DNA from: Rhodocyclaceae bacterium
Lineage (GTDB): Bacteria > Pseudomonadota > Gammaproteobacteria > Burkholderiales > Rhodocyclaceae
Length of the DNA: 37,251 nt
Assembly (NCBI GenBank): GCA_013426785.1
Contig: JACDZI010000027.1
Location: 1 to 37,251 of the forward strand
Direction of reading: 5' to 3'
Shown here: piece after piece, positions 2,577 through 33,298 of the stretch
Numbering within the stretch: the first letter of the stretch is position 1
Layout: every line of letters starts with the position of its first letter
Program-made: the position numbers and the translations under genes
Notes under the pieces: generated by a model
Seen by the model: the letters and a program-made list of their open reading frames with translations, nothing else
Told to the model about the DNA's origin: nothing
Databases searched by the model: none

Positions 2577-4085
2577 CTAGCGGCGGCGTCCGCCCAGCAG
2601 CGAACCAAGCACACCACGCATGATCTCGCGACCGACCTGTGAGCCGATGGTGCGCACCACGGTCTTGGCCATCGTCTGAGCCAACCCGTCGGTACGTCCG
2701 CCACGCGGGCCGGTACGTCCGAACAGCAAGTCATTGATCATGCTGCCATCTTCCTGTGCCGTCCCACCAGCGCCGACTTTTTGTGGGGGCGCTTCAGCCG
2801 CCGTTTCGGCGACGCGCGCATTGAGTCTTTCGTAGGCGGATTCACGATTGACGGTTTTCTCGTAGTGGCCGTACAGCACCGAGGACCGGATCGCCACCCC
2901 TCGTTCTGGCGGCGTCAGCGGCCCGAGGCGCGAGGCTGGCGGCAGCACAAAGGCACGCTCGACCACCGCCGGCCGGCCCTTGTCATCGAGAAAGGACACC
3001 AGCGCCTCGCCGACGCCCAGTTCGGTGATGGCCGCAGCGGCATCGAAGGCCGGATTGGCGCGCATCGTCTCGGCCGCCGCCTTGACGGCCTTCTGGTCGC
3101 GCGGCGTGAAGGCACGCAACGCGTGCTGCACGCGGTTGCCGAGTTGGCCGAGCACCTTGTCGGGCACGTCGAGGGGATTCTGCGTGACGAAATAGACGCC
3201 CACGCCCTTGGAACGGATCAGCCGCACCACCCGCTCGACCTTATCGACCAACGCGGCCGGCGCATCGGCAAACAGCAGGTGCGCCTCGTCGAAGAAGAAC
3301 ACCAGCTTGGGTTTTTCGAGGTCGCCCGCCTCGGGCAGTTGCTCGAACAGTTCAGCCAGCAGCCACAGCAGGAAGGTCGCGTAAAGCTTGGGCGAGTTCA
3401 TCAACTGGTCGGCGGCGAGGATGTTCACCACACCACGCCCACCGTCGGCGGTCTGCATCAGGTCGGCGATGTCGAGCATCGGCTCGCCGAAAAACTTGTC
3501 GCCGCCCTGCTCTTCGAGCGTCAGCAATCCCCGCTGGATGGCGCCGATCGAAGCTGCCGAAATATTGCCATATTGCGTCTTGAAGCTCGCCGCGTTGTCG
3601 CCGACGTGCTGCACCATGGCGCGCAGGTCCTTGAGATCGAGCAGCAGCAGGCCATTGTCGTCGGCAACACGGAAGACGATCTGTAGCACGCCTTCCTGCG
3701 TTTCGTTCAGCCCCAGCAAACGTGCCAGCAGCAGCGGCCCCATGTCGGAGACCGTCGCCCGCACCGGATGACCCGATGCACTCAGGACATCCCAGAACAC
3801 CACGGGATTCGCGCGCGGCAGCCAGTCGGTCACGCCAAGATTGTCGAGCCGCTTTTGCAGTTTGTCGGAGGCGACACCCGCCGCGCCCAAGCCGGAAAGG
3901 TCGCCCTTTACATCGGCGATGAACACCGGCACACCGATGGCGGAAAACTGCTCGACCAGCCGTTGCAGGGTGATGGTCTTGCCGGTGCCGGTGGCGCCGG
4001 TAATCAGGCCGTGGCGGTTGGCAAGGGCCGGCAGGAGGAAAAGTTCGTCGTTGCCTGATCGGGCGATGGGAAGAGGGTTGCTCAT
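2577..4085 (-). CDS. yjgR: YjgR/HerA-like P-loop ATPase (DUF853 family)
   Basis: The 502-residue protein matches the DUF853 helicase-HerA-like family in length and order. Walker A is GATGTGKT at residues 30-37. Walker B is [10 protein letters not shown] at about 261-270, followed by a sensor-like FVTQNP at 299-304 and the family's [19 protein letters not shown] segment near 326-343. The biological role of YjgR is not well established; related HerA/FtsK ATPases move DNA. Residues 436-443 are KVGAGGTA, encoded by a copy of the dispersed 24-bp repeat, in a Glu/Ala/Pro-rich linker before the conserved C-terminal segment ([17 protein letters not shown]). The start ATG at 4085 faces the divergent adenylate cyclase 115 bases away; the EamA gene follows after three bases. 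Confidence 0.88.
2758..2781 (-). repeat. 24-bp dispersed repeat, copy 1 (in yjgR)
   Basis: One mismatch to the consensus, whose ends on the coding strand are AAAAGTCGGCG and CGGGACGGC separated by four bases. It is in frame in yjgR and encodes KVGAGGTA. Confidence 0.9.
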
Positions 4086-4200
4086 GGACGGTCTGCCTGA
4101 ATTTCAACAGCCATAAGGATAGCGTATCCATAAGCCGCCTTGACCGGCAGGCCCGGTTCCTGCGAAACTACTCCACCATGCATTCAGCAGTTGACCCGGT

Positions 4201-5499
4201 ATGACATCACCCCCACATAACTTCAGCCAATGCGATTATCTCGATCGCCTGCGCAATGCCGGCATCGAGCCAGGAGACAGCGAGGAAACCCGCCTCAACA
4301 AGCAGTTGTTGATGTTCGCCACGGGCCTGGTAAGTGTCGCCTCGATGGCCTGGCTTTCCATCTACTGGGTCCTCGGGCCACAGTTTCCGATCACCTACCC
4401 CTATCTATACCAGTTGGCACTGGCAGCCAACGTGCTGGCCTACATTGCCACGCGCAATTTCAATTTTTTTCGCGTCACACAACTGGGTCTGTTTCTGTTC
4501 GCCCCCTTCGCCATCCAGTGGAGCATCGGCAACTTCATCAGTTCCAGTGGCATCATCCTGTGGGGACTGCTTGCACCGGTCGGCGCCATCCTGTGTTTTG
4601 GCGTGCGCGACTCACTGGCCTGGTTTTTTGCCTGGGTGGTGTTCACGATGATGTCAGGCTTCTTCGATTACCTGCTACTCGACCCCACCTCCGCAGGTAA
4701 ACTGGCCGCTCCATTGAGTACCAGCGTAATTTTCTTCGAGCTCAATTTCATCTCCGTCGCGAGCATCATCTACGCCATGCTGCGCTTCTCGATCCAGGAA
4801 AAGAACAAAGCGCAGACCCGGCTCGTCGATGCTCACAAATCCCTCCAGCACGAACAGGATCGTTCCGAAAAGCTTCTACTCAACATCCTGCCGGCCCCCG
4901 TCGCCTTGCGACTGAAGAACTCCGAGCAAACCATCGCCGACGGCGTTGCCGATGCCTCGGTGATGTTCGCCGATATTGTCAACTTCACGCATGTCGCCGC
5001 CAACATGACGCCGAGCCAGGTGTTCGCGATGCTCAACAGCATCTTTTCAGCCTTCGACGATCTGGCGGAAAAATACGGCCTCGAAAAGATCAAAACCATC
5101 GGCGACGCCTATATGGTGGCGGGCGGCATCAATACTGCGAACGACGACTACTCGGCCGCCATCGCCGATCTGGCTCTGGACATGCACGCGTTACTGCATC
5201 AGGATTTCGTCGTCAACGCCTCTCATCTCGAAATGCGCATGGGCATTGGCACCGGCCCGGTGGTCGCGGGTGTCGTTGGTAAAAAGAAATTCATCTACGA
5301 CTTGTGGGGCGATACGGTCAATCTCGCCAGCCGCATCACCAGCGAAGGGGGCCCCGACATGATCCAGTGCGATACAGCCACCTACCGCCGCCTTGCCGAT
5401 CGCTTCGACTTTCACGAACCGCAAACGATCTACCTCAAGGGCAAGGGCAATATGACGGTCTATCGCCTGATCGGACGCAAAGGCGTCGCTGTCGTTTAG
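4201..5499 (+). CDS. membrane-bound class III adenylate cyclase
   Basis: The 432-residue protein has an N-terminal membrane region (about residues 33-195, five or six helices), a short coiled-coil linker with the NILPAPVALRLK motif (228-239), and a CYCc catalytic domain (about 250-425). Both metal-binding Asp are visible: D258 in FADIVNFT and D302 in TIGDAYMV. Lys298 and Asp367 (IYDLWGDTVN) are the pair expected for ATP rather than GTP, and N374 and R378 occupy the transition-state positions, so the enzyme should be an active adenylate cyclase making cAMP. The domain is expected to work as a homodimer at the inner membrane. No obvious ribosome-binding site precedes the ATG at 4201. The gene converges on the histidine kinase downstream and overlaps its stop by four bases. 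Confidence 0.9.
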   Translation: MTSPPHNFSQCDYLDRLRNAGIEPGDSEETRLNKQLLMFATGLVSVASMAWLSIYWVLGPQFPITYPYLYQLALAANVLAYIATRNFNFFRVTQLGLFLFAPFAIQWSIGNFISSSGIILWGLLAPVGAILCFGVRDSLAWFFAWVVFTMMSGFFDYLLLDPTSAGKLAAPLSTSVIFFELNFISVASIIYAMLRFSIQEKNKAQTRLVDAHKSLQHEQDRSEKLLLNILPAPVALRLKNSEQTIADGVADASVMFADIVNFTHVAANMTPSQVFAMLNSIFSAFDDLAEKYGLEKIKTIGDAYMVAGGINTANDDYSAAIADLALDMHALLHQDFVVNASHLEMRMGIGTGPVVAGVVGKKKFIYDLWGDTVNLASRITSEGGPDMIQCDTATYRRLADRFDFHEPQTIYLKGKGNMTVYRLIGRKGVAVV

Positions 5500-7422: not shown

Positions 7423-8112
7423 ATGAAAAAACAAGCTGGTTTTACCCTCGTCGAAATCGCCATCGTGCTGGTCATCATCGGCCTGCTGCTGGGCGGCGTG
7501 CTGAAGGGGCAGGAACTGATCAATAGTGCGAAAGTGAAGAATTTCGCGACTGACTTCCGCAATATTCCGCTGTTTATCTATGGTTATCAGGACAAGTTCA
7601 AGGCATTGCCGGGTGATGATGCGGCGGTTGCCACTACTCACCTTGGCTCTGCGGTCGGCGGGGTAACCGTGGTTCCCGCAACTGGTGCGAGCGTTGGCAA
7701 CGGCGTTATCAACGGGGCGTGGAACTCAACGTCCATAACGGCTGAGTCGGTGTTGTTCTGGCAACACGTTCGCTTGGCCGGTCTTGCAGCAGGAGCTACT
7801 TCGGCACCAACTGACGCTAATGCTGTTAAGACTTTTGTACCGCAAAATGCGGATGGTGGACATGTCGGGATCACAAGCGGCACGAATACACCAGTAGCAG
7901 GTTTGACCGGTACTTACATCGTTTGCTCAACCAACATACTTGGAAAATTTGCCAAACAGCTTGACCTCACAATGGATGATGGGGCTCCTGCTACGGGTTC
8001 AGTTCGTATAATTGATAACCAATCCTGGGATCAAACAGCGGCAGTCATTGCAAAAGCAAACGTTGCAGCCGTGGATGACGCATCGTCTTACACAGTCTGC
8101 ATGGCTCTCTAA
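7423..8112 (+). CDS. type IV pilin-like protein (class III signal peptide)
   Basis: The 229-residue product begins MKKQAGFTLVEIAIVLVIIG. This is a six-residue basic leader ending in Gly, cut by PilD before Phe, with Glu at +5 and a hydrophobic helix. The protein would assemble into a type IV pilus or a pseudopilus at the inner membrane. The C-terminal half has two Cys, in IVCSTN and at the extreme end (YTVCMAL), consistent with the disulfide-bonded D-region of pilins. An open frame extends upstream to 7237, but the start at 7423 is fixed by the leader peptide and by GGAG eight bases before it. It is longer than a typical PilA (about 150 residues), so it may be a variant or minor pilin. A sigma-54 promoter precedes it and a terminator follows. 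Confidence 0.85.
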   Translation: MKKQAGFTLVEIAIVLVIIGLLLGGVLKGQELINSAKVKNFATDFRNIPLFIYGYQDKFKALPGDDAAVATTHLGSAVGGVTVVPATGASVGNGVINGAWNSTSITAESVLFWQHVRLAGLAAGATSAPTDANAVKTFVPQNADGGHVGITSGTNTPVAGLTGTYIVCSTNILGKFAKQLDLTMDDGAPATGSVRIIDNQSWDQTAAVIAKANVAAVDDASSYTVCMAL

Positions 8113-9897: not shown

Positions 9898-11913
9898 TCA
9901 CGGGGACTGCAACAACCGTTCTTCGCCGGTCGCCACGGCTTTTGCACTTCCCCGAATCACGACCACATCACCCGCCTGCAGGCGGGTATCCGGCGCTAAC
10001 GCGACTATTGGCTGCGAACGCCGCCGGATCGCCGTCACGCCAGCGCCGACTTTTTCCAGATTGATCTCTTCGAGGCTGTGACCTACAGCCCATGCCCCGG
10101 CATCGAGCGTCACGGCATGCAGACGCGGTTGATCGGCATCGGCGACGCCTTCGCCGGCATCCGTAGCCCCGTGGAAGAAGCCACGCAATAGCGCATAGTG
10201 CTGTTCGCGCAACTCGCGCAGGCGACGGATGACGCGGTGCATCGGCACGCCCACCAGCGCCAGGGCATGCGTGGCGAGCATCACCGAGGACTCCAGCGCC
10301 TCGGGCACCACTTCCGCCACCCCGGCCTCGAAGAGCTTTTCGGCGTCCTCTTCCTCGCGTGACCGGGCGACGATCGGCAGATCGGGCCGCAGTTCGCGCA
10401 CCCGCTGCACCAGCCGCAGCGTTGTCGCCAGGTCGGCAAAGGTGACGACCAGCACGCTGGCGCGGACGATTCCCGCTGCCATCAGATTCTCGCGCCGCGT
10501 GCAATCGCCCCAGGCGACCGGCTCGCCGGCACTGGCCGCCTCGCGCACGCGCTCGGAATCAAGGTCGAGGGCCATGAAGCCGATCTGCTCGGACTCCAGA
10601 AAACGCGCCAGATGCTGGCCGGTCTTGCCGTAGCCGCAAAGGATGGCGTGCTTTTCGGTCGCTACCGTCCGCACCGCTATCTGCGTCAGCTGCATCGAAC
10701 GGGTCAGCCACTCCGAGGCCACCAAGCGCAAGACGAGGCGGTCGGACACCTGCACGATCAGCGGTGCCAACATCATCGACAGCACCATTGCCGCGAGAAC
10801 CGGCTGGAGCAGGTCGCGATCGACCAGGGCGGTATCGGTGGCGAGCGCCAGCAGGACAAAACCGAATTCACCTGCGGCGCACAACCACAGCCCGGAACGC
10901 AGCGCCGTACCTGGGCTGGCGCCCATCCGCCGTGAAGCCGCAGCGACAACGGCCAGCTTGGCAGAAAACAACAGCAGGAGGACCGCCAGCACCTGTCCGG
11001 CATTGCGCCAGATCGCGACCGGATCGAGCATCATGCCGGTAGAGATGAAGAACAGGCCCAACAGCACGTCACGGAAGGGCTTGATGTCCTCCTCGACCTG
11101 ATAGCGGTATTCGGTTTCGGAAATCAGCATGCCGGCGATAAATGCGCCCAGTGCCGGCGACAGGCCAGCCAGTTCGGTCGCCGTGGCGAAACCGAGCGTG
11201 ACCAGCAGGACATTGAGCATGAACAATTCGCCCGATTTGCGGCGGGCCACCAAGCCGAACCAGGCATGCATCAGCCTCTGACCGACAAAGAGCACCAGGC
11301 CAAGCAATACGGCGGCTTTTGTCAGCGCCACGCCCAACTCGCCGGCAAGCGCATCGACCGGTTGCGACAGGGCGGGAATCAGCACCAGCAGCGGCACAAC
11401 GGCCAGATCCTGGAACAGCAACACGCCCATCACCTCGCGGCCATGAGCGACATCGAACTCGCGCCGCTCGGCCAGCAGCTTCGACAGGATGGCGGTGGAT
11501 GACATCGCCAGTGCCCCGCCCAGGGCGATGCTGGCCTGCCAGGACACCCCCCAGATCAGCGCACCAGTTGCCACGGTGACCAGCGTACCAAGTACCTGGA
11601 TCAGGCCGAGGCCGAAGACAATGCGCTTCATGGCAAACAGGCGCGGCAGAGAAAATTCCAGGCCGATCGTGAACATCAGGAACACCACGCCGAATTCGGC
11701 GAGGCGGTGCGCGCTGTCACTGTCCGGCAACAGCGCCAGTGCATTTGGCCCGGCCAGCGCACCGACCAGCAGATAGCCGAGGATCGGCGGCAGGCCAAGG
11801 CTGCGGCAGAGTGCCACCGCCAGGACGGCGGCAGCAAGCAGGATGAGGATCAGATAAAGCGTCAAGGGAAGAGCCGGCCTCTCGGGGGGAACGATATAAT
11901 TTCCGGTAATCAT
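9898..11913 (-). CDS. Kef-type monovalent cation:proton antiporter (CPA2) with RCK domains
   Basis: The 671-residue protein has an N-terminal Na+/H+-exchanger-type domain of about 12 helices (residues 15-395; GLPPILGYLLVGALAGP at about 33-49), a RCK_N/TrkA-N nucleotide-binding domain (about 415-535; LCGYGKTGQHLARFL is the Rossmann loop, GKTG in place of GxGxxG) and a RCK_C domain at the end. This is the KefB/KefC/YbaL layout for potassium efflux or proton exchange gated by a cytosolic ligand. The start is the ATG at 11913; the frame is open to 12141, but that part is antisense to kdsD. Residues about 620-627 (KVGAGVTA) come from a copy of the 24-bp repeat, in the first part of RCK_C. The gene is divergent from kdsD. 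Confidence 0.85.
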   Translation of the reverse strand: MITGNYIVPPERPALPLTLYLILILLAAAVLAVALCRSLGLPPILGYLLVGALAGPNALALLPDSDSAHRLAEFGVVFLMFTIGLEFSLPRLFAMKRIVFGLGLIQVLGTLVTVATGALIWGVSWQASIALGGALAMSSTAILSKLLAERREFDVAHGREVMGVLLFQDLAVVPLLVLIPALSQPVDALAGELGVALTKAAVLLGLVLFVGQRLMHAWFGLVARRKSGELFMLNVLLVTLGFATATELAGLSPALGAFIAGMLISETEYRYQVEEDIKPFRDVLLGLFFISTGMMLDPVAIWRNAGQVLAVLLLLFSAKLAVVAAASRRMGASPGTALRSGLWLCAAGEFGFVLLALATDTALVDRDLLQPVLAAMVLSMMLAPLIVQVSDRLVLRLVASEWLTRSMQLTQIAVRTVATEKHAILCGYGKTGQHLARFLESEQIGFMALDLDSERVREAASAGEPVAWGDCTRRENLMAAGIVRASVLVVTFADLATTLRLVQRVRELRPDLPIVARSREEEDAEKLFEAGVAEVVPEALESSVMLATHALALVGVPMHRVIRRLRELREQHYALLRGFFHGATDAGEGVADADQPRLHAVTLDAGAWAVGHSLEEINLEKVGAGVTAIRRRSQPIVALAPDTRLQAGDVVVIRGSAKAVATGEERLLQSP
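10031..10054 (-). repeat. 24-bp dispersed repeat, copy 2 (in kef)
   Basis: One mismatch to the consensus. It is in frame with the antiporter gene and encodes KVGAGVTA in the RCK_C domain. Confidence 0.85.
11895..11900 (+). promoter_or_regulatory. candidate -10 box for the kdsD-kdsC-lptCA operon
   Basis: A perfect TATAAT lies 26 bases before the kdsD ATG, in the short divergent gap with the kef gene. No good -35 box lies at the right distance (about 11872-11877), so the promoter is only a candidate. Confidence 0.4.
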
Positions 11914-11926
11914 AACCGCCCGTCCC

Positions 11927-12910
11927 ATGACCACCCCTAACGCCTCCGAACAAATCCTCGAACTGGCCCGTCGCGTCCTCGCGATCGAAGCAGGGGCAGT
12001 CAATAAAATTGCCGATCGATTGGGTGATGAATTTGTAAGGGCAGTCGCATTGATCCTCGCCTGCCAGGGCCGGGTCATCGTCAGCGGCATCGGCAAATCG
12101 GGGCACATCGGCCGAAAAATCGCCGCCACCATGGCAAGCACTGGAACGCCGGCCTACTTCGTCCATGCCGCCGAAGCCGTGCACGGCGATCTCGGCATGA
12201 TCACGCACGACGACGTGCTGATCGTGATTTCCAATTCCGGCGAAAACGACGAACTGCTGACGATCGTACCGCTGGTACGGCGCCGCGGCGGCAAGTTGAT
12301 CGCCATTACCGGCAACGCGCAGTCCTCGTTGGCGAGGGAAGTCGACATCCACCTCGATGCCCGCGTCGACGAAGAGGCCTGCCCGCTCAATCTCGCCCCC
12401 ACCGCCAGCACGACGGCCGCCCTGGCACTCGGCGACGCGCTCGCCGTCGCCCTGCTGGATGCGCGCGGTTTTGGTGCAGACGATTTCGCCCGCTCCCACC
12501 CCGGCGGCACCCTCGGACGAAAACTGCTGACCCATGTACGCGATGTGATGCAATCGGCCGAACGCATTGCCGTTGTCATGGTCGCCACCTCCATACCGGA
12601 AGCGTTGATTGTCATGTCGCGGGGTTCGATGGGCATGACGGCCGTTCAAAATGGCGCAGGCCCACTGGTCGGCATCTTCACCGATGGCGACCTGCGCCGG
12701 GCGATGGAAAAGCTCGGCGATCTGCGCCAGGTTGCGGTTGGGGAAGTGATGACACGCAACCCACTCACCATCGCTCCGGAACAGCTGGCGGTCGAGGCCG
12801 TCGAGATGATGGAGCGCCACAAGGTGAACCAGTTACTGGTCATCGATGCCGGCGGACAACTCGTCGGAGCCCTCAACATGCACGACCTGTTCCGCGCCAA
12901 GGTAGTCTGA
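11927..12910 (+). CDS. kdsD: D-arabinose 5-phosphate isomerase (KdsD/KpsF)
   Basis: The 327-residue protein has the family's order: SIS sugar-isomerase domain (about 30-170, with GRVIVSGIGKSGHIGRKIAA and VISNSGENDELL), the SHPGGTLGRKLL segment (about 188-199), and two CBS domains (about 205-262 and 272-325; VMTRNPLTIAPEQLAVEAVE begins the second). It converts D-ribulose 5-phosphate to D-arabinose 5-phosphate, the first committed step to Kdo for lipopolysaccharide. Length matches E. coli KdsD (328). The stop overlaps the kdsC start by one base (TGATG), so translation is probably coupled. Confidence 0.95.
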   Translation: MTTPNASEQILELARRVLAIEAGAVNKIADRLGDEFVRAVALILACQGRVIVSGIGKSGHIGRKIAATMASTGTPAYFVHAAEAVHGDLGMITHDDVLIVISNSGENDELLTIVPLVRRRGGKLIAITGNAQSSLAREVDIHLDARVDEEACPLNLAPTASTTAALALGDALAVALLDARGFGADDFARSHPGGTLGRKLLTHVRDVMQSAERIAVVMVATSIPEALIVMSRGSMGMTAVQNGAGPLVGIFTDGDLRRAMEKLGDLRQVAVGEVMTRNPLTIAPEQLAVEAVEMMERHKVNQLLVIDAGGQLVGALNMHDLFRAKVV

Positions 12911-15709: not shown

Positions 15710-15733
15710 GCCGTCCCGCCAGCGCCGACTGTT
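15710..15733 (-). repeat. 24-bp dispersed repeat, copy 3 (3' end of cinA-like gene)
   Basis: One mismatch to the consensus. On the minus strand it starts at the last base of the cinA-like TAA stop and runs downstream in the sense direction. Confidence 0.88.
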
Positions 15734-16491
15734 TACTTGCTGTCGTAGTTGTAGCCCAGCGCAGCGACACCACTCTTCAAAACGTCAATGGCTACGGCAA
15801 CCGCTTCCGGAGCACCCCGCACGCCGAGTTCGACATGGCGCCGCATTGTCTCGCTGCCGAAGCTCGGCAGACTGAACACGACGATGCCGGGAAAATCCGC
15901 CTCGGTCTGGCGCATCAGCTCGAGCATATTGCCTTCCAGCCCTTCCCAGACGAGGATGACGGCTTCGGTTTCCGCGTTCTGGCGGAAATCGTCGGCGTAG
16001 TAAGTGTCGAGTACCCACTCGGCCATCGGCCAGGCCATCTGCGGGAAGCCCGGCAGGAAATGATGGTCGCCGCACGAAAAGCCGGGAATGCGATTGAAGG
16101 GGTTGGGAATGATGCGGCTGCCCTGCGGATAGGTGCCCAGTTCCAGCCGCGCCGGGGTGACCGGCTGGCCCATCTCGGCCATGCGCGCGCGAATTTCGCG
16201 TTCAGCATCAGGATGCAATTCAAGCGGCACAGCGGCCGCAGCCGCAGCCGCCTGCCGGGTATGGTCGTCGGGCGTAACACCGATGCCGCCGCAACTGAAC
16301 ACCACGTCGCCGCCCGCCAGTGTGCGCCGCAGGGTTTCGATCAGGCGCGGGCGTTCGTCGCCGAGGTATTCCACCCACGACAGGTGCAAGCCGCGTTCGG
16401 CAAAAATTTCGATGAACTTCGCCAGATGCTTGTCCTGGCGCTTGCCGCGCATGATCTCGTCGCCGATGATGATCAGGCCGTAGGTCCTCAT
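15733..16491 (-). CDS. CinA N-terminal / MoaB-like molybdopterin-binding domain protein
   Basis: The 252-residue protein is a stand-alone MoCF_biosynth domain: TYGLIIIGDEIMRGKRQDKH (about residues 3-22) and GGDVVFSCGGIGVTPDDHTR (about 60-79) are the family's hallmark segments. It lacks the C-terminal deamidase domain of full CinA (about 400 residues). Short proteins of this kind are annotated as competence/damage-inducible protein A homologues; the actual reaction is unclear, and nucleotide or pterin binding is inferred from the fold. Its ATG overlaps the stop of the EI24 gene by three bases (ATGA), placing it last in the long minus-strand transcription unit. Confidence 0.82.
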   Translation of the reverse strand: MRTYGLIIIGDEIMRGKRQDKHLAKFIEIFAERGLHLSWVEYLGDERPRLIETLRRTLAGGDVVFSCGGIGVTPDDHTRQAAAAAAAVPLELHPDAEREIRARMAEMGQPVTPARLELGTYPQGSRIIPNPFNRIPGFSCGDHHFLPGFPQMAWPMAEWVLDTYYADDFRQNAETEAVILVWEGLEGNMLELMRQTEADFPGIVVFSLPSFGSETMRRHVELGVRGAPEAVAVAIDVLKSGVAALGYNYDSK

Positions 16492-20200: not shown

Positions 20201-20779
20201 CGGTGCACCGTCAAAATGCTTTGAGAATCGTTCGGCATCCAGCGTCGCGGAAGTGACGATGAGCTTCAAATCGTGCCGCTCATTGTTTCTTTTGACCAGC
20301 ACCGACTTTAGGTAGCCCAGCAGGAAATCAATGTTGAGCGAGCGCTCGTGCGCCTCGTCGATGATCAGTGTGTCGTACTGGCGTAGCAGGGGATCGGTCT
20401 GCGTCTCGGCCAGCAGGATGCCGTCGGTCATCAGCTTGATGTAGCTCGCGGGCGAGCTGCGGTCGGTAAAACGAATCTTGTAGCCGACGTGCTTGCCGAG
20501 TTCCGATTTCAGTTCCTGGGAGATGCGCCCGGCCGTGGCGCGCGCGGCAATACGACGCGGCTGGGTGTGGCCGATCAGCCCCTTCAGGCCGCGGCCGAGT
20601 TCGAGGCAGATCTTCGGCAACTGCGTCGTCTTGCCCGAGCCGGTTTCGCCGCAGACGACAATGACCTGATGCTTCTGGATCGCGGCGGCGATCTCGTCCC
20701 GCCGCGCGCTGACGGGCAACGCCTCGTCATACGTAATGACCGGACGCGCGGCCCGGCGGGCTTCGGCATCGAACTTCAC
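17216..20779 (-). CDS. hrpA: ATP-dependent RNA helicase HrpA (DEAH box)
   Basis: The 1187-residue protein carries Walker A GETGSGKT (44-51), DEAH (141-144) and SATLD, then motif VI as QRAGRCGRV, a helicase-associated domain, an OB-fold region and the long C-terminal DUF3418 domain special to HrpA. It is somewhat shorter than E. coli HrpA (about 1300), mainly because the N-terminal lead is short. HrpA resolves stalled ribosomes and remodels RNA in the cytoplasm. Its ATG overlaps the hsdM stop by four bases (ATGA), so a housekeeping helicase is translationally coupled to a restriction-modification gene. Confidence 0.95.
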   Translation of the reverse strand: MKFDAEARRAARPVITYDEALPVSARRDEIAAAIQKHQVIVVCGETGSGKTTQLPKICLELGRGLKGLIGHTQPRRIAARATAGRISQELKSELGKHVGYKIRFTDRSSPASYIKLMTDGILLAETQTDPLLRQYDTLIIDEAHERSLNIDFLLGYLKSVLVKRNNERHDLKLIVTSATLDAERFSKHFDGAPVIEVSGRLYPIETRYRPFDERKDADLNDAIVDAVSEAHREGPGDVLVFLPGEREIREAAEALRKHHPPGLEVLPLFARQTVQEQSRVFAPHQGRRVVLATNVAETSLTVPGIRYVIDTGVARVKRYSHRNKVEQLQVEAISRAAANQRAGRCGRVASGVCFRLYAEDDFQKRAPYTAPEILRSSLAGVILRMKSLHLGDVEDFPFLERPAPRMIADGYTLLAELGAIDETSKELTAVGKELAKLPLDPKIGRMILAAREFGCLQEMLVIAAALGTQDPRDRPQEQAAAADQAHAQWKDEKSEFLSYLKLWQAADEVWKHESSSKQKNWCRQHFINWLRLRELRDVHGQLMTLCHEHGWKENQLPGSHDAIHKALLTGLLGHIGLINEEDKNYFGARGIKFFIHPGSNLVKKAGRWIVAAELVETSRLFARCIAKIEPEWLEQVGAHLIRRHVYEPHWEKGPGQVVAWERVTLHGLTLHAKRRVNYGPLDPKLGRELFIRGALVEGEVGEDWLKKWRFLQHYQQLKTEIERLEHKARRPDVLVDDALVYACFDAVVPEGITTLVAFDKWRRDAEQGNPKLLFLEKDQLMRHEAAGITTDAFPSAYDHLGQPLPLVYKHDPGATDDGVTLSLPLAELNRLSATVMEWLVPGLRKEKVVALLKTLPQKYRHRVQPVDAFAEAFCDDEHDRSDSLAKSLTRAIEEKIALKLPLDALRPGELRPHLLMNFRLLDEHGGTLAMSRNLAELRADYGDFAAPSEEKEAESQRLDLRGRFALALNPQLKFAEKSLPRELGLQFLPFGSEAELKEQVAAVALERTCLAEPLAEDSAAFDARVTQAKGRVGLVAQEVARQVGSILAEHVFVQKKLVAMQKTFPQAGADIAAQLAALLPKGFIVATPYERLQHFPRYLKAIGLRLDKLKNDSARDARLLADWRGVAQTWEREWLAMRKAGVDDSFLQEYRWLLEELRVAQFAQELRTPSPVSVKRLQKMWEGRERH

Positions 20780-22011
20780 GCCGGCTCCAGCAATCCCGCA
20801 AGCCTGGCCAGCGCCGCCTTGTCCACGGCGGCAAGGCGCTCGCGCAACGCCACAATTGCCGTCTCGCCAGCGCCGACTTTCTTCAATGCGGCCAGTTCGT
20901 CTTTCAGTGCAATGACTTCAGCCTTGCGGGTTTCCGCCTCGGCGCCGAGGATGTGCTGCACGAACAGCACCTGCGTTGAACTGGTCTCGAAGCTGTAATT
21001 CTTCTGCGCGTCCTTGCCCTCCTTGCCACCGAAAGGCGGATTGGTCAGGATCACGTCGAAGGTCGCGGGCGCATCCTCGAACAGGGCGTCGTAGGTCGGC
21101 GCGTCGGTCAGCGTGTTGCCATGCCACAGGTTGGGCTGGTCGATGCCGTGCAGCACCAGATTCGCCAGCGCGATCGGCAACACCAGGTTTTCCTTCTCGC
21201 GGCCGAAGAGGGTGCGCGTCTTCAACCGTTCCAGATCGGTGCTCGACGCCACATCACCCAGCGTGTGCGCCATCAGTTCATACGCCTGGGCGAGGAAGCC
21301 GCCGGTGCCGCAGCAGGGGTCGTAGACGGTTTCTCCCGGTTGGGGTGCGATGGCGCGCACCATCGCGCGGATCACTTCGCGCGGCGTGAAGAACTGGCCG
21401 CCGTCGGAATTCTTCTCGCCCATCTTCAGCAGCAGGTCTTCATACACCTGCGACAGCGTGAAGAAATGCCTGTCGTCGATGTGATCGATGCTGATCTCGT
21501 GCACCCGGTCGAGGATGTCGCATAGATTGGTTTCCGAATCCACGCGCACCCGTTCCACCGCCGTCATGATGCGGCCGATGATGCGTTGCTTGGGGCTGGC
21601 CGAATGGTTGGGCCGGCCATCGGGCAGCACATCGAGCCGGTGCAGATAGGGCAGCAGTTCCTTGTTGATGAAGGCGAACAGATCGCCCACGCGCGTTTTC
21701 AGCGCCGCGCGCTGCGCTCCGCCCGGCGCGGCCCAGTCCTGCCAGCGATAAGGCGCGGCGAGGGCTGGCGCGAACGGCTTGCCTACGGCTTCCGCCGTCT
21801 CGCGTGCGCGCTCCTCCTGGGCATCGAGAATGCGCAGGAAGAGAATCCAGGTCAGCTCCGGCACATACTGCCAGGCGCTCGCGCAGTTCGAGCGGCGCAT
21901 GATGTCACAGATCGACTTGACGAAGGAGGACAGGGACTGGGTGGAGGCGATGCTTCTCGGCGTGGTCGCCTTCGTCGCCGTCCGGCCAGCGCCGACTTTT
22001 GCTTTTCTCAT
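20776..22011 (-). CDS. hsdM: type I restriction-modification N6-adenine methylase HsdM, internally deleted
   Basis: The 411-residue protein has the N-terminal HsdM helical domain (about 25-165), then the methylase domain with motif I DPCCGTGGF (231-239) and catalytic motif IV NPPF (324-327). After VLFVQHIL (348-355), where homologues continue with about 100-150 residues of the methylase fold, the sequence jumps to a charged helical tail (356-411; RKAEVIALKDELAALKKVGA). The AdoMet site and NPPF remain, but the fold downstream is missing, so activity is doubtful. Two repeat copies lie in frame: KVGAGRTA at residues 5-12 and KVGAGETA at 378-385. It starts two bases after dinD and overlaps hrpA by four. 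Homologue lengths are from memory. Confidence 0.8.
   Translation of the reverse strand: MRKAKVGAGRTATKATTPRSIASTQSLSSFVKSICDIMRRSNCASAWQYVPELTWILFLRILDAQEERARETAEAVGKPFAPALAAPYRWQDWAAPGGAQRAALKTRVGDLFAFINKELLPYLHRLDVLPDGRPNHSASPKQRIIGRIMTAVERVRVDSETNLCDILDRVHEISIDHIDDRHFFTLSQVYEDLLLKMGEKNSDGGQFFTPREVIRAMVRAIAPQPGETVYDPCCGTGGFLAQAYELMAHTLGDVASSTDLERLKTRTLFGREKENLVLPIALANLVLHGIDQPNLWHGNTLTDAPTYDALFEDAPATFDVILTNPPFGGKEGKDAQKNYSFETSSTQVLFVQHILGAEAETRKAEVIALKDELAALKKVGAGETAIVALRERLAAVDKAALARLAGLLEPA
20858..20881 (-). repeat. 24-bp dispersed repeat, copy 4 (C-terminal part of hsdM)
   Basis: Two mismatches to the consensus. In frame in hsdM, encoding KVGAGETA in the charged tail. Confidence 0.85.
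21977..22000 (-). repeat. 24-bp dispersed repeat, copy 5 (N-terminus of hsdM)
   Basis: One mismatch to the consensus. In frame four codons after the hsdM ATG, encoding KVGAGRTA. Confidence 0.88.
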
Positions 22012-23433: not shown

Positions 23434-24870
23434 ACCCCAAACAACCTCGTCTTCGCCTCGCGCATCACATCCGCCGGCCGGCCCAGCAGCCGCAGTGCAT
23501 CCAGCCCGCCGACGCGGCGGATTTCGGGCACGTCCCACAGCAGTTCCGATTCCAGCGCTTCGGTACCGCCCGCGCCAAACTGGTGGCCGAGGCCGCGCAG
23601 GACAATAGCGGCTTTGTCATCGACCGAGGCGAACCACGGCGCTTCGTGCGTGAGATAGGCCGCTTCCCGCTCGACGCGCTTCATGGCTTTTTCGCGGTAG
23701 CCGAAGTGGGCGAACAGGTCGAAGTGGTCGCAGTCGACCATGTGCATCAGTTCGCGCACGGTGTCGGGCGAGTAGTGCTCGCCGAGCAGGTGATTGATTA
23801 GGGTGCGGCGCTTCTGCGTCTCGACCCAGAGACCACGAAAATCGTGGAGGGTGGCCGCCTCGCGCAGCACGCGGGCAATCATTTCCTGGCAGTAGTCCTC
23901 GACCGGAATCGCCACGTCGCGCCCTTCGCGCCGTTGCAGGATGAAACGCCCTTGCGGCGTGATGCTGACCGACTGGCCACCGACGATCTCGGGCAGGGGC
24001 AGCGGATCGCCGGAGCCGTGCATCTGCTCGATCAGGTCCGACCCGCCCTCGGCGGTGCATTTGAAGGCGTAATGTTCCTTGGGGGTAACGCCTCGCTTCC
24101 TGGCACCAGGCGGCATAGCGCCGCTGCAAGGCCATTTGCACTCGATCGGCGTGCAGATCGCGGGTGCAGAAGACGATGACTTTCTGCTCCGGCCCGCCGT
24201 TGTCGCGGGTGAACGTCTGCCAATCGACCGAGGGTTTGAGGCGGACGATTTCGCAGGCGGCGATATAGCCGTCCTCCTGCGCCTGGATCAGGGTGTATTC
24301 ATAGACCGGCTCGCCGAAGTAGCCAAGGTTGTTGGCGGTGATCTCGGCGTCGTCCGCAGTCTGGTGCTTCGATTCGCGCAACTGACGTGGGGTGGCGGTG
24401 AGGCCGATATGGATGGCGGCGGGTTGCGTGATGTCGATGCCGCTATCAAGCGCATAGCGGGCGGTCAGCGCGTCGTGGCTGGGAAAATCGGCAAAGGGAA
24501 ACGGCCCGCCCGGCATCTGCATACCGAGATCGAATTCGCCATAGCGATGGCCATTGGTGGCGAAGACGTGGCGCACCTTGAAACGGGTGCAGTCGGCGTA
24601 ACCCCGGGCCTGCTGCATCCCCTTCAAGGGGTCTTCGCTTTCGACCTTGGCTTCGATCACGCCGACCGGCAACGCCGTCCCGCCAGCGCCGACTTTTACG
24701 CAGAGCAGGTAATCGGTGCGGCCAGCCCCCTTGCGGCGGCGTCCCTTGTGCCCGGTCGGCTCGACCGGGGCGGGTGTTTCGAGCTTGAGCTTCCAGGGAT
24801 CGTCATAACCCTTGACCCGCAGCACCGGGTTGATCAGGTGGTACTTGGTTTCTTCCTCGTTCAGGCTCAT
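23430..24870 (-). pseudogene. hsdR: type I restriction endonuclease subunit HsdR (EcoEI type), eroded
   Basis: The N-terminus (MSLNEEETKYHLINPVLRVKG) carries the nuclease motif, Asp53 and Glu73-x-Lys75, interrupted by repeat-encoded KVGAGGTA (59-66). At about residue 151 the frame jumps from DSGIDITQPAA to IHIGLTATPRQ, so the ATP-binding GKT loop and the DEAH-like motif of the motor are absent. Further apparent gaps are at about residue 223 (TFTRD/NGGPEQ) and after MHGSG in the second frame, where motifs V-VI should be. The frame changes near 24081-24105: the rest (KEHYAFKC onward to ADVMREAKTRLFGV) is in a second frame ending at 23430. Ends are well conserved. It cannot be a working restriction motor. 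Gap positions rely on my memory of EcoEI-family sequences. Confidence 0.82.
24674..24697 (-). repeat. 24-bp dispersed repeat, copy 6 (in hsdR)
   Basis: Perfect match to the consensus. In frame in hsdR, encoding KVGAGGTA between the Asp and the Glu-x-Lys of the nuclease motif. Confidence 0.92.
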
Positions 24871-25321: not shown

Positions 25322-26995
25322 ATGGCCGACGCAGAAATCAAAGTTACCAACTTCATCCGCAACATCATCGACGCCGACCTCGCCGCCGGCAGGCATGCGA
25401 TTGTCCGCACCCGTTTCCCGCCGGAACCCAACGGCTACCTGCATTTCGGCCACGCCAAGTCGATCTGCCTCAACTTCGGTCTCGCCCGCGACTACAGTGG
25501 CGCCTGCCACCTGCGTTTCGACGACACCAACCCGGAGAAGGAAGAGCAGGAGTACGTCGATTCCATCATCGACGCCGTGCATTGGCTCGGCTGGGACTGG
25601 AACGACAAGCTCTTCTATGCCTCGAACTACTTTCAGTCGATGTACGACTTCGCCGAAAAGCTGATCGAGGCCGGCCATGCCTATGTCGACTCGCAAAGCG
25701 CCGAAGAGATGCGCGCCAGCCGCGGCACCCTGACCGAAGCCGGCAAGCCGTCGCCCTATCGCGACCGCACGCCGGCCGAAAACCTGGAATTGTTCCGCCG
25801 CATGAAGTCCGGCGCGTTTCCCGATGGCACCCATGTGCTGCGCGCGAAAATCGACATGGCCAGCGGCAACATCAACCTGCGCGACCCGGCGATCTACCGC
25901 ATCCGCCACGCCGAACACCACAACACCGGCAACCAGTGGTGTCTTTATCCGATGTACACCTACGCCCACCCGATCGAGGACGCGCTGGAGAACATCACCC
26001 ACTCGATCTGCACGCTGGAATTCGAGGATCAGCGCCCGTTCTACGACTGGCTGCTGCAACGACTCGCCGAGTTGGGCTGCGTGAGCACGCCGCTGCCGCA
26101 GCAGATCGAATTCGCGCGCCTCAACCTCACCTATGTCGTGCTGTCGAAGCGCAAACTGATCCAGCTCGTCGACGAGAAGCATGTGAACGGTTGGGACGAC
26201 CCACGGCTGCCGACCCTCGTCGGCGCGCGCCGGCGCGGCTATACGCCGGCAGGCTTCCGCAAGTTCGCCGAGATGATCGGCGTCACCAAGTCCGACTCGC
26301 TGATCGACTACAGCATCTTCGAGGAATGCCAGCGCGACGTGCTCAACGAAACCGCGCCGCGCCGCATCGCCGTGCTCGATCCGTTGAAGCTCGTCATCGA
26401 CAACTATCCGGCAGGCCAGGAAGAAGAATGCCTCGCCCCCAACCACCCGCAACAGCCGGAACTGGGCAAGCGCGCGGTGCCATTCTCCCGCGAACTGTGG
26501 ATCGAGCGCGAAGACTTCATGGAAGTGCCGCCGAAGGGCTATTTCCGCCTCTTTCCCGGCAACAAGGTGCGCCTGCGCTACGGCTTCGTCGTCGTATGTA
26601 CCGGCTGCGACAAGGATGATGCCGGCAATATCGTCGCCGTGCATTGCAACTACTTCGCCGATTCCCAGTCCGGCACGCCGGGCGCCGACACCTACAAGGT
26701 CAAGGGCAATATCCACTGGCTGTCCGCACAACATGCCCATCCCGCCGAGGTGCGCCTCTACGACCGGCTGTTCAAGGTGCCGAATCCCGGTGCCGAAAGA
26801 GATTTACTCGAAGACATCAACCCGGATTCGGTCAAGACCATCACCGCCCAGCTCGAACCGGCCCTCCGGGATGTCGCGCCTGAAGAGCACTTTCAGTTCG
26901 AGCGCCACGGCTACTTTGTCGCCGACCGCGTGGAATCCAAAGCGGGCTGCCCGGTGTTCAACCGCACCGTCACCTTGAAGGACGCCTGGAAATGA
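25322..26995 (+). CDS. glnS: glutaminyl-tRNA synthetase
   Basis: The 557-residue class I synthetase has [14 protein letters not shown] (HIGH motif at 41-44), the tRNA and Gln-pocket region with [15 protein letters not shown] (about 65-79), the KMSKS equivalent VLSKRK (273-278), and the two C-terminal anticodon-binding beta barrels. Length matches E. coli GlnRS (554). It charges tRNA-Gln in the cytoplasm. The ATG at 25322 is preferred to an in-frame TTG nine bases upstream. The stop overlaps the pyrF start by four bases (ATGA). Confidence 0.97.
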
Positions 26996-27801
26996 CCTTC
27001 ACAGGGATGCTCGCCAGCGCCTGGGTAAAGAACCATTCGCTGCTGTGCGTCGGCCTCGACCCCGATCCGGCCAGGTTCCCCGCGCATCTGCAGGGCGACA
27101 TCTTCCGCTTCTGCGCCGAAATCGTCGACGCCACCGCCGACTTCGCCTGCGCCTTCAAGCCGCAGATCGCCTACTTCGCCGCCCACCGCGCCGAGGACCA
27201 GCTCGAAGCCCTGATCGCCCATATCCATGCGAAACATCCGGGCGTGCCGGTGATCCTCGACGCCAAGCGCGGCGACATCGGCAGCACGGCCGAGCAATAC
27301 GCCATCGAAGCCTTCGAGCGCTACCGGGCCGACGCCGTGACGGTGAATCCCTACATGGGCCGCGACTCGGTTGAGCCCTGGCTGGCCTACCAGGACAAGG
27401 GCGTGATCCTGCTCTGCCGCACCTCGAACCCCGGTGGCAGCGACCTCCAGTTTCAAAAAATCGGCGCTGGCGGGACGGCACTCTATGAACTGGTCGCCGA
27501 AAAAATCGCCAGGGAATGGAACACGACAGGTCAATGTGCCCTCGTCGTCGGCGCCACCTTCCCCGGCGAGATAGCGCGCGTGCGCCAGATCGTCGGCGAT
27601 CTGCCGCTGCTGGTGCCCGGCATCGGCGCCCAGGGCGGCGACATCGAAGCAACGGTGAAGGCCGGCAAAACCGCCGCCGGCACCGGCCTGATGATCAATT
27701 CCTCGCGCGCCATCCTCTACGCCGGCAAAGGCGAAGACTACGCCAGCGCCGCGCGGCGGGTCGCGCAGGACACCCGCGACGCGATCAATCGCTGGCGGTA
27801 G
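26992..27801 (+). CDS. pyrF: orotidine 5'-phosphate decarboxylase, type 2
   Basis: The 269-residue protein is the long type 2 form of OMP decarboxylase. The catalytic Lys lies in [13 protein letters not shown] (about 88-100); [11 protein letters not shown] begins the barrel, and [11 protein letters not shown] and [12 protein letters not shown] (phosphate-binding end) are intact. It makes UMP, the last step of pyrimidine synthesis. Residues 156-163 (KIGAGGTA) derive from a 24-bp repeat copy and fall in a loop after [10 protein letters not shown], away from the catalytic residues, so the enzyme should work. It overlaps glnS by four bases. Confidence 0.95.
27456..27479 (+). repeat. 24-bp dispersed repeat, copy 8 (in pyrF)
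   Basis: One mismatch to the consensus. In frame in pyrF, encoding KIGAGGTA. With the copy at 32481 it is one of two full copies on the plus strand, both following plus-strand genes. Confidence 0.88.
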
Positions 27802-29094: not shown

Positions 29095-29106
29095 CGGAGG
29101 CCCGTC

Positions 29107-29491: not shown

Positions 29492-29698
29492 ATGGCCGGC
29501 GGCTGGGGTTGTCCCCACGAAGTCAACGATACCTGCACGAAGATCAACCACCTGCCCTGCGATCCGGGCATGAAGGGTTGCGTGCTGGCTGGACGTTTCG
29601 TCTTTGCCAACGAGGACAAGAATGTCCGCCTGCGCGAGAAGCAGGCGCGCGCGGAAAGCAAGCCCGAAGAGGACGACAGTTCCGGGATGCATCCGTAG
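29492..29698 (+). CDS. small Cys-rich conserved hypothetical protein
   Basis: The 68-residue protein starts MAGGWGCPHEVNDTCTKINH and continues LPCDPGMKGCVLAGRF. Five Cys (residues about 7, 15, 23, 30 and none later except as part of C-D-P-G-M-K-G-C) and one His cluster in the first 30 residues, suggesting metal binding; I count four clear Cys: 7, 15, 23 and 30. The second half is charged helix. I have a general memory of similar proteins in Rhodocyclales but know no function. Its stop TAG is directly followed by the ATG of the KTSC gene. Confidence 0.6.
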   Translation: MAGGWGCPHEVNDTCTKINHLPCDPGMKGCVLAGRFVFANEDKNVRLREKQARAESKPEEDDSSGMHP

Positions 29699-29965
29699 AT
29701 GGAGATGAAGAAGGTCAGCTCCGGCCGGCTGCGCGCCATCGGCTACGACGAGAAGGCGCGCTGTCTGCGCATCGAACTCGACAACGGCGAATTGCTCGAA
29801 TACGACCGGATCACGCTCGAAATGTGGCGCCGCTTCTCTGAATCGGCTTCGCCGTGGAGCTATTACCTCGACAATATCCAGGAAGAACTGACGCCGCGCC
29901 GTCTCGCCAGCGCCGAGTCTTCCAAGCCGCAACAACGCAACCCTCTCGACGATTTGTTTTCCTAG
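29699..29965 (+). CDS. KTSC domain protein
   Basis: The 88-residue protein begins MEMKKVSSGRLRAIGYDEKA. The pattern V-SS-L-AIGYD---L-IEL-NGELLEYDRI-LEMW--F-ESASPWSYYLDNI (residues 5-60) matches the KTSC domain, found alone or next to Lys-tRNA synthetases and nucleases, function unproven. The start follows the previous stop with no gap; a second ATG two codons later is possible. A stretch at 29898-29921 resembles the 24-bp repeat in 21 of 24 positions but in the opposite orientation to the gene. Confidence 0.75.
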   Translation: MEMKKVSSGRLRAIGYDEKARCLRIELDNGELLEYDRITLEMWRRFSESASPWSYYLDNIQEELTPRRLASAESSKPQQRNPLDDLFS

Positions 29966-29975
29966 GAAGCGCGCC

Positions 29976-31103: not shown

Positions 31104-31118
31104 CCGGAGGAGCACACG

Positions 31119-32222: not shown

Positions 32223-32479
32223 TCGACGTTCGCGTGCCGAAGTTTCCCGACTGTTGGGAAACCTGCGGCAACTGCGGACAGGGGGAAGTACAGGTGCTGG
32301 AAGTGCATGTCGAACCCGGCGACGTGATCCGTCACGACGACAATCTGATCACCCTCGAAACCGGCAAGGTTGCCCTCGACATCCCTTCACCACACGCCGG
32401 GCGGGTTGTCGAAATTTGTGTAAGCGAAGGCAACATGATCGGCGAGGGCGCGCTGATTGCGCGTATCGAACCCGGCTGA
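32219..32479 (+). CDS. stand-alone biotinyl/lipoyl-domain protein with a Cys cluster
   Basis: The 86-residue protein is a single lipoyl-type domain: GDVIRHDDNLITLETGKVAL then DIPSPHAGRVVEI. Lys50 in ETGKV is at the position of the lipoylated or biotinylated Lys (ETDKA in dehydrogenase E2), and both Gly near the turn are kept. Unusually, the first strand-turn is CWETCGNCGQGE with Cys12, Cys16 and Cys19, plus Cys67 later, which could bind metal or form a redox pair. No dehydrogenase, carboxylase, lipoyl synthase or ligase lies nearby. It starts inside the previous stop (ATGA), so it is co-translated with the Hpt/HD-GYP gene. Confidence 0.72.
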   Translation: MIDVRVPKFPDCWETCGNCGQGEVQVLEVHVEPGDVIRHDDNLITLETGKVALDIPSPHAGRVVEICVSEGNMIGEGALIARIEPG

Positions 32480-32480
32480 G

Positions 32481-32504
32481 AAAAGTCGGCGCCGGCGGGA
32501 CGGC
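32481..32504 (+). repeat. 24-bp dispersed repeat, copy 9 (after the lipoyl gene)
   Basis: One mismatch to the consensus. It starts one base after the stop of the lipoyl-domain gene, in the sense direction. Confidence 0.88.
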
Positions 32505-32869
32505 TTTCGACCCCGAAAAGACAGTCGGGTTTCCACCCTCATCGGCAATGCAGCGGGAGCGGTCATTGGCGTTTGGGATTCCTATTTCGACAGTCGTCCC
32601 GCAAGGGACGCTCGGAAATTTTCTCAGCGGTCATTCAGCCTCCGCCGTTCCCCCTACGGGATCACAAATTGCCGACCAACCAGACATTAACGTGAAATAA
32701 CCCGTCATTGCAAGCGCAGCGAAGCAATCCATGAACTCCGAAGGCCTGGATTGCCACGGCGCTGGCGCGCCTCGCAATGACGAGGGGTTTTCATGATTGG
32801 GGGGTGACTTCGAAGCCATGAAAGTTAGCGGACCGTTCCCAACCATTTCCGATGAGGTAGCATCGAAGA
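32505..32869. other. non-coding, repeat-rich spacer
   Basis: These 365 bases hold no convincing gene. Visible structure: AGCGGTCATT twice (32558-32567 and 32626-32635), a six-pair hairpin CGTCCC-GCAA-GGGACG (32595-32610) without a T tract, and the 80-bp inverted-repeat element at 32703-32782. The frames open here look like shadows. Confidence 0.6.
32703..32782 (+). repeat. 80-bp MITE-like element with terminal inverted repeats
   Basis: CGTCATTGC at 32703-32711 and GCAATGACG at 32774-32782 are exact inverse complements. Inside them, AGCGAAGCAATCC on the left faces GGATTGCCACGGCGCT on the right, giving a longer imperfect hairpin. Short elements beginning CGTCATTGCGAG and ending in its complement occur in many bacterial genomes. 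No target duplication could be confirmed. Confidence 0.6.
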
Positions 32870-33145
32870 ATGAAATTCCTAATCCCCACTCTTCTGTTGA
32901 TCTCCGTTCTAGTCTCTGGTTGCGCGTCGGTGGATAAATTCGCCGAACTTGGTGATGGGTCGTTCTGGTTGTATCGAAGTTCGACCGGAAACGGGGACGA
33001 GGTCGCTGCGAAAGTTTTCGACGACGCTCGGAGCCGGTGCGAGTCTCACGGCAAAACGCTGTCGGTGATTAGCGGGTCGTCTACGGCAGGGATTTTTGGG
33101 CCATCCTCTGCAGTCATGACGTTCCGGTGTGACCCGCCTAAATAG
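32870..33145 (+). CDS. small outer-membrane or periplasmic lipoprotein, hypothetical
   Basis: The 91-residue protein has a lipoprotein signal (MKFLIPTLLLISVLVSGCAS) with lipobox LVSGC and lipidated Cys18; Ala-Ser after it favours the outer membrane. The mature part of about 73 residues has two Cys (RCESHG and FRCDPPK) that could form a disulfide. I recognise no family. Ribosome binding is weak (GAAG five bases upstream). Base composition is lower in GC than neighbouring genes, and it is flanked by repeats on both sides, so recent acquisition is possible. Confidence 0.65.
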   Translation: MKFLIPTLLLISVLVSGCASVDKFAELGDGSFWLYRSSTGNGDEVAAKVFDDARSRCESHGKTLSVISGSSTAGIFGPSSAVMTFRCDPPK

Positions 33146-33274
33146 AAATAGCCTGGAAATTTTCCACGATTGGTGCTCGGCACTGCGCGATCGGCTGAAA
33201 AACTGTAGGTCAGCAACCAGTCTGAAACGGACGTGGCCTTCGGCAATCCCACTAGCCGGTCGTGGCCGAACTCT

Positions 33275-33298
33275 GCCGTCCCGCCAGCGCCGACTTTT
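33275..33298 (-). repeat. 24-bp dispersed repeat, copy 7 (upstream of ccdAB)
   Basis: Perfect match to the consensus, on the minus strand. It ends two bases before the ccdAB -35 box. It is the only copy not in the sense direction of the gene before it. The 129 bases between the lipoprotein stop and this copy hold no recognised feature. Confidence 0.92.

Follow-up and report, generated by a model that had tools for sequence, protein, structure and literature searches.

We predict that a 24-bp word dispersed throughout this genome, with the consensus AAAAGTCGGCGCTGGCGGGACGGC, probably serves as a self tag of a Rhodocyclaceae lineage in the manner of a DNA uptake sequence, and that sister genera use dialects of it. 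A sequence-only reading of the window, which is the whole 37,251-nucleotide stretch of DNA analyzed (positions 1-37,251), had proposed three candidate explanations for the word, namely an uptake word, an in-frame mobile element, and a protein linker. The first of these gains support from the abundance of the word, its similar frequency on the two strands, copies that diverge from it by increasing numbers of mutations, an origin by substitution, and dialects elsewhere; the other two are not supported. Judged from the genomic evidence, the best explanation is that the word belongs to a third DNA uptake sequence family, besides DUS and USS.

All nine copies previously listed in the window are present where they had been placed, each with zero to two mismatches to the consensus, and a tenth copy had been missed (Table 1). 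In 100 shuffles, there were 0 matches to the search pattern, which was one base off AAAAGTCGGCGCTGGCGGGACGGC. The copy at 24674 is ambiguous. It lies in a 417-aa ORF with a match to HSDR_N below the cut-off, the opposite overlapping ORF has no Pfam match, and its placement depends on the gene call, being antisense in the first call and ambiguous in the second.

Table 1. Copies of the 24-bp word in the window and the genes around them.
Feature	Position	Strand	Context
Word, 1 mismatch; frame KVGAGGTA	2758..2781	-	Within HerA_C helicase gene (yjgR-like), 2577-4085 -
Word, 1 mismatch; frame KVGAGVTA	10031..10054	-	Within Na_H_Exchanger/TrkA gene (kef-like), 9898-11934 -
Word, 1 mismatch	15710..15733	-	Between called genes (next 15733-16491 -); weak alternative ORF over word
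Word, 2 mismatches; frame KVGAGETA	20858..20881	-	Within N6_Mtase/HsdM gene, 20776-22011 -
Word, 1 mismatch; frame KVGAGRTA	21977..22000	-	N-terminal end of HsdM gene, 20776-22011 -
Word, exact	24674..24697	-	Within ORF 23617-24870 - (HSDR_N below cut-off); overlapping + ORF competes
Word, 1 mismatch; frame KIGAGGTA	27456..27479	+	Within OMPdecase (pyrF) gene, 26992-27801 +
Tenth word, 3 mismatches	29898..29921	-	Antisense inside small called ORF
Word, 1 mismatch	32481..32504	+	Intergenic; called gene ends just before, 32479
Word, exact	33275..33298	-	Intergenic; called gene starts just after, 33301; weak alternative ORF over word

Across the genome, a count of both strands found 706 copies with three or fewer mismatches, divided similarly between the strands (363/343), compared to 0 for the reversed word used as a control. 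In 424 kb, 30 copies were exact and 44, 19, 15, 4, and 2 copies carried one, two, three, four, and five mismatches, respectively, forming a graded series of mutated copies. The sharp ends described from the window were borne out by the 24 informative columns obtained from 108 copies in the 424 kb; the sole signals outside these columns are a purine directly 3' of the word in 96/106 cases and a weak preference (0.24 bit) just 5' of it, with the remaining flank columns to 30 bp at 0.12 bit or less. The copies are evenly spaced, with a coefficient of variation of 0.72 compared to 0.83-1.18 under random placing. Word-free stretches of 22-28 kb exist; among five contigs, the longest two correspond to a gene cluster for ribosomal proteins and EF-Tu and to one for surface polysaccharide. 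The gene comEC itself carries three words. Genome G002 has 104 and 114 copies on its two strands, and in 380 kb of it the leading and lagging strands, assigned by local GC skew, carry 29 and 26 copies (raw strands, 20/35), which is no bias; a replication-oriented site was rejected on these counts. Chi-type recombination sites are short and oriented with replication, unlike this 24-bp word. HIP1 of cyanobacteria, a palindromic octamer whose function is debated, is similarly over-represented genome-wide, whereas the word described here is a non-palindrome with dialects.

Among the 108 copies, 66 are in coding sequence, on both strands, and 42 are outside called genes or straddle them. Fully noncoding copies number 36, compared to 6.1 expected (p 1e-18). 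Antisense copies account for 31/66 intragenic copies in the first gene call and for 31/69 confidently placed copies in the later frame analysis. It had been claimed that the word always occupies the same reading frame, with a chance of 1 in 7,800 that its intragenic copies would agree. The six copies named in support are in the KVGAGGTA frame, with the one at 24674 ambiguous, but the claim does not extend to the genome and reflects a small sample of six: the 69 confident intragenic copies in the 424 kb use all six frames, four of them preferentially (KVGAGGTA 24, AVPPAPTF 15, RRPASADF 14, and KSALAGR 12, with 2 copies in each of the remaining two). Selection for KVGAGGTA as a protein motif or linker might explain why this is the commonest frame; the intergenic and antisense copies and the use of six frames refute it, and we assign this explanation virtually no probability. 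Intergenic words between co-directional genes also show a pattern, as 17/21 read GCCGTC...CTTTT in the transcript, which would fit a transcription terminator or an RNA element whose repeats have spread for regulatory reasons. However, a stem of at least 7 pairs ahead of the T run was found in 0/17 of these words and in 5/66 coding words, and most copies lie within coding sequence on both strands. A terminator was rejected for lack of a hairpin at the 17 co-directional words, and a role of this kind is highly improbable.

Rickettsia palindromic elements are found as in-frame copies inside unrelated genes, as are copies of the word described here. A self-spreading miniature element, either inserted in frame like these elements or copied by a transposase, would be compatible with a length of eight codons, sharp ends, and a favored frame that encodes a small flexible peptide. 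However, a clean 24-bp insertion was seen in 0/54 alignments, covering 14 sites at which relatives have homologous DNA. The word was absent without any gap in 11/54 alignments, in which the aligned sequences were 5-13 mismatches from it, and gaps were present in others (1-9 in 19/54 and 10 or more in 4/54). The word also differs from the Rickettsia elements in having no single frame. Because no clean insertion was found, the alignments indicate that the word is a product of substitution rather than a mobile insert; the mobile candidate was rejected and a miniature element, largely refuted, is very unlikely. Substitution through mutated intermediates, to which both the 54 alignments and the graded mismatch spectrum point, is also characteristic of DUS and USS.

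The Neisseriaceae are betaproteobacterial, their DUS is 10-12 bp long, and its inverted pairs are associated with terminators, while the Pasteurellaceae USS has a 9-bp core with AT-rich flanks. A published account of DUS describes many copies on both strands, genic and intergenic locations, dialects, and foreign-dialect copies (PMC3630211). Our word resembles DUS in its copies on both strands, its locations in and between genes, its dialects, and the copies of foreign dialects, as well as in a betaproteobacterial host with a ComP_DUS-family pilin; it differs in being 24-25 bp long, bipartite, of another sequence (sharing the trinucleotide CTG), and from another family. Inverted pairs occur in high numbers for DUS according to the same account (PMC3630211), whereas close inverted pairs are nearly absent here (1 among 100 neighbor pairs), and no hairpins were found at the 17 co-directional words. 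For the known DUS and USS, a noncoding excess, large shares in ORFs, and no orientation bias have been described (PMC1939737), and we likewise observed over-representation on both strands, a noncoding excess, and no chromosomal orientation bias. Approximately 60% of copies are in ORFs here, compared to 65% for the USS of Haemophilus influenzae as reported there (PMC1939737), and the absence of orientation bias and the molecular-drive pattern are also USS-like. In contrast, the sequence is unrelated to USS, the bacterial class is different, and both ends are fixed around a variable middle. The even spacing, intergenic excess, and absence of replication-strand bias resemble the properties of known uptake words.

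We propose that competent cells bind double-stranded, word-bearing DNA through the type IV pilus, import it, and then recombine it. Alleles that have mutated closer to the word would be taken up more often, and the word would therefore spread through unconstrained DNA by molecular drive. Pilins are present, and ComEC and DprA were found in 20/21 and 19/21 word-bearing genomes, respectively; both are also present in most word-free genomes and therefore do not discriminate. A ComP_DUS-type minor pilin (36.8 bits; cut-off, 27.3) encoded at G000:C211:27435-27857, clustered with GspH, PilW, and PilY1, is a candidate receptor for the word. A PDB sequence search with this pilin gave 16 sequences; these are type IV pilins of a general kind, and none carries the name ComP. 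No receptor tracking the word was found, since ComP_DUS (184/199 genomes) and homologues of the pilin (195/199) extend to word-free genera. ComEA is a usual component of transformation. Unlike in Neisseriaceae, ComEA (TIGR00426) was above the cut-off in 0/21 word-bearing genomes, compared to 18/40 others, and the genome analyzed here has no match whatsoever. The ComEA shortfall, the lack of a receptor that tracks the word, the few inverted pairs, and the lack of hairpins count against an uptake word.

Within the family, 24/199 genomes, from ten genera, carry 22-639 copies (reversed control, at most 7). In related genera, dialects share the boxes AAAGTC and ACGGC, 12 bp apart, around a lineage-specific middle, while whole genera lack the word. 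Alternatively, an intracellular chromosome protein may bind the word for nucleoid organization, segregation, or recombination control, with weak selection at each site. Even spacing, a sharp site of 24-25 bp, the intergenic excess, and the ComEA shortfall are consistent with such a DNA-binding protein. The absence of strand polarity, the 22-28 kb without a word, the genus-specific middle, and the genera without any word argue against it, and near-exact 24-bp copies within proteins would be costly for a structural role. We consider this explanation unlikely, although it is the most plausible of the alternatives.

DUS and USS are considered to have arisen independently of each other (PMC12616744). 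Returning to uptake, we tentatively suggest, with less confidence than for the self tag itself, that self-DNA recognition could have originated independently a third time, in Rhodocyclaceae, through a bipartite word of 24-25 bp in which two fixed outer boxes flank an exchangeable middle specific to each lineage; a pilus receptor would read this word in hosts seemingly without the canonical periplasmic DNA-binding protein ComEA. If true, a third uptake-word family in environmental betaproteobacteria would allow a test of repeated origin by molecular drive, make it possible to study the recognition of a long bipartite word by its receptor, and show how gene pools become divided by dialects in bacteria that are not host-associated. 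A direct literature search found no prior report of the word. An exact 20-mer of it is present in the record of Sulfurisoma sediminicola BSN1, which is a named isolate. Gene flow could be traced from stray copies in other genera, and stray copies also occur in other families. An exact 20-mer of the word was also seen in viral contigs (54 stretches).

All nine copies of the 24-bp word listed by the sequence-only reading are present in the window, and a tenth, with 3 mismatches, lies at 29898. The consensus is AAAAGTCGGCGCTGGCGGGACGGC, and a pattern near-identical to it had zero matches in 100 shuffles of the window. On the other strand the word starts GCCGTC, six bases that also occur in the Neisseria DNA uptake word (DUS), possibly by chance. 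Across the 241 contigs of the genome (3.24 Mb), 706 copies have up to 3 mismatches, 363 and 343 on the two strands, compared to 0 copies of the reversed word, the control. In a detailed sample of 424 kb (the window and 20 stretches), 30, 44, 19, 15, 4, 2 and 7 copies had 0, 1, 2, 3, 4, 5 and 6 mismatches, respectively; reversed and scrambled controls gave 3 and 2 matches, each at six mismatches. The sharp 24-base ends described earlier hold for the 108 copies with up to 3 mismatches: information stops abruptly after 24 columns, except that the base which follows is mostly a purine (96 of 106). A is tolerated at word positions 17 (26 of 108) and 18 (18 of 108).

Among 61 genomes surveyed first (the source genome and 60 relatives), 18 of the 19 in its genus carry 181-706 copies. 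The exception, G005, holds no word and its DNA resembles the query stretch little; its placement in the genus may be wrong, or the word may have been lost. Two further genera of the family are rich in the word (G019, 438 copies; G026, 730), the remaining 16 family genomes have 0-5 copies, and of 24 genomes examined from other families only G047 has the word (4 copies). Among the matches listed, an exact 20-mer of the word occurs in at least 115 stretches of named records, mostly Rhodocyclaceae, Rhodocyclales, Sulfuritalea and Sulfurisoma. Several of the stretches come from one Propionivibrio and from one record labelled Gammaproteobacteria, and records of Thiobacillus, Azonexus, Casimicrobiaceae and Lysobacterales contribute one each. 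The 20-mer was also seen in 54 viral-contig stretches (L402-L455), as a single copy in 52; these are possibly proviral or host DNA.

Related words, or dialects, share the outer boxes AAAGTC and ACGGC, 12 bp apart. Surveying k-mers in 20-60 kb of each of eight word-poor or word-free genomes revealed such a word in one, G028, where it starts AAAGTCAGTC. In another, G036, GGAAAAGTCATGACCGT occurs three times in 60 kb and is a further repeated word or repeat element. Counted in 199 family genomes, the pattern AAAGTC-N12-ACGGCG is abundant in 24 (22-639 copies), which belong to ten genera (g1, g2, g9, g11, g47, g62, g69, g70, g88 and g90), compared to at most 9 copies in the other 175 and at most 7 per genome for the reversed control. 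Pattern-rich members make up 3 of 4 genomes in g11, 1 of 2 in g47, 1 of 4 in g90 and 3 of 6 sampled in g1; G002, a g1 genome low by this count, mostly has A after the word, where the pattern demands G. Dialect words numbered 0 in 60 kb from each of three control genera, and likewise 0 in one 20-kb stretch of word-bearing G110. In 291 genomes from other families of the order, only G292 stood out, with 14 copies that include both dialect types and a control count of 0; no other genome exceeded 5 copies, and the reversed control reached 12 in one of them. At the level of sequence, both the word and its dialects are established.

Middle segments of the word and its dialects, by genus of Rhodocyclaceae
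Genus	Middle	Remark
g1	GGCGCTGGCrGG	
g11	AGTC, then a loose stretch	
g47 and g90	AGC/AGT types	g47 from 4 copies
g69	GACGCTGG	
g88	GGCGCTGryrAn	
g70	GGCGCTGGCGGn	

A few copies, sometimes clustered, occur in the otherwise word-free G123, G168, G097, G036, G047 and G292; in G123, 4 of 5 lie within 41 kb (1461265-1502266). These stray copies are as expected of DNA from word-bearing donors.

The word had been described as always lying in one reading frame. Allowing overlapping open reading frames (ORFs), 77 of the 108 copies have a host ORF (69 confident, 8 ambiguous) and 31 have none. The 69 confident copies use six frames: KVGAGGTA (24), AVPPAPTF (15), RRPASADF (14), KSALAGR (12), PSRQRRL (2) and KSRRWRDG (2), the two rare ones giving arginine-rich peptides. 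Because six frames are in use, the pattern in the window reflects a preferred frame in a small sample. By a first gene call, made with a simple custom hexamer gene finder whose gene borders are approximate, 66 copies lie within genes, 36 are fully noncoding and 6 straddle a border; the 36 compare with 6.1 expected (p 1e-18), an excess that may be overstated, as the finder labels 94% of bases coding. Between co-directional genes, 17 of 21 intergenic words would give a transcript reading GCCGTC...CTTTT, 11 of them no more than 30 bp from the called upstream stop codon. No hairpin of 7 pairs formed at these 17 words.

Homologous DNA of relatives gave 54 distinct alignments at 14 sites, counting those whose flanks are at least 0.6 identical; 39 come from a single 20-kb stretch (L197). 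The relative also had the word in 20, lacked it without a gap in 11, and showed gaps of 1-9 bases in 19 and of 10 or more in 4. A mobile in-frame element, one of the candidates raised earlier, would insert the word into host DNA; against it are the absence of any clean deletion of at least 20 bases in the 54 alignments and the 11 gap-free word-less alignments. The latter differ from the consensus at 5, 5, 6, 6, 6, 6, 6, 7, 7, 10 and 13 bases, with a mean flank divergence of 24%. Protein alignments were broadly concordant: among the 18 word-bearing proteins that had a match, several show residue replacement with no gap, and others carry the word in loops with gaps of variable size. As read from these alignments, the word arises through substitution, not insertion.

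Spacing between neighbouring words is more regular than random (coefficient of variation 0.72 over 100 intervals; random 95% range 0.83-1.18), and the four neighbour orientations are near equal (27, 26, 25 and 22). In G002, a 380-kb sample has 20 plus-strand and 35 minus-strand copies, but 29 vs 26 when scored against local GC skew; over the full G002 genome the two strands hold 104 and 114. Close inverted pairs are rare, with 1 among 100 neighbour pairs and 2 distinct pairs under 80 bp across all loci collected. The two longest word-free stretches in five contigs of the source genome are gene clusters, one of 28.6 kb (54% GC) for ribosomal proteins and elongation factors and one of 22 kb (53% GC) for surface polysaccharide, both named by eye from protein starts within the initial 20 kb of each.

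Excerpts of PMC1939737 place 65% of uptake-word copies inside ORFs in H. influenzae and 35% in N. gonorrhoeae, and describe a non-coding excess, no orientation bias, about 10% of copies as inverted repeats, and molecular drive as an explanation; even spacing is cited there, yet also qualified. Excerpts of PMC3630211 report dialects, many inverted pairs and foreign-dialect copies for DUS, and a portion of PMC12616744 treats DUS and USS, the Pasteurellaceae word, as independently evolved. On the traits given in those parts of PMC1939737 and PMC3630211, our word agrees with DUS and USS except for inverted pairs and terminators. Among open PMC papers, we found no report of an uptake sequence in Rhodocyclaceae or Sulfuritalea, and none of such a word in Rhodocyclaceae by title or start of abstract among the matches listed. 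The best inference is that the word and its dialects are putative uptake sequences, a reading that we favour with moderate confidence; it is held back because ComEA is missing and no receptor tracks the word.

Word-bearing genomes number 21 of the 61: 18 from the source genus plus G019, G026 and G028. ComEC occurs in 55 of the 61 and 20 of the 21, and DprA exceeds the cut-off in 57 and 19, respectively; the comEC of the source genome itself contains three words. ComEA (TIGR00426) exceeds the cut-off in 18 of the 61 and in 0 of the 21, the single-contig G017 and G028 included, and had no match of any strength in the source genome. Word-bearing genomes also give weaker matches, in long frames of 620-1723 aa (for the most part near 800), which may represent a different helix-hairpin-helix protein. 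Neither ComP_DUS (184 of 199 family genomes) nor homologues of the source genome's own pilin (195 of 199) separate carriers from non-carriers. At E of at most 0.1, seven pilin-type N-termini were recognised in that genome, six of them over the cut-off. Four of the seven lie in a cluster on its contig C211, with a ComP_DUS pilin, the candidate receptor (36.8 bits, cut-off 27.3), a GspH-family pilin, PilW and PilY1; a gene between cluster members looks, by its place, like PilV. In the window, a protein of 229 aa (7423-8109, plus strand) has an N-terminus of the type IV pilin type and adjoins an apparent membrane protein, and a similar pair lies near 59 kb on contig C76, where the pilin matches PF00114.
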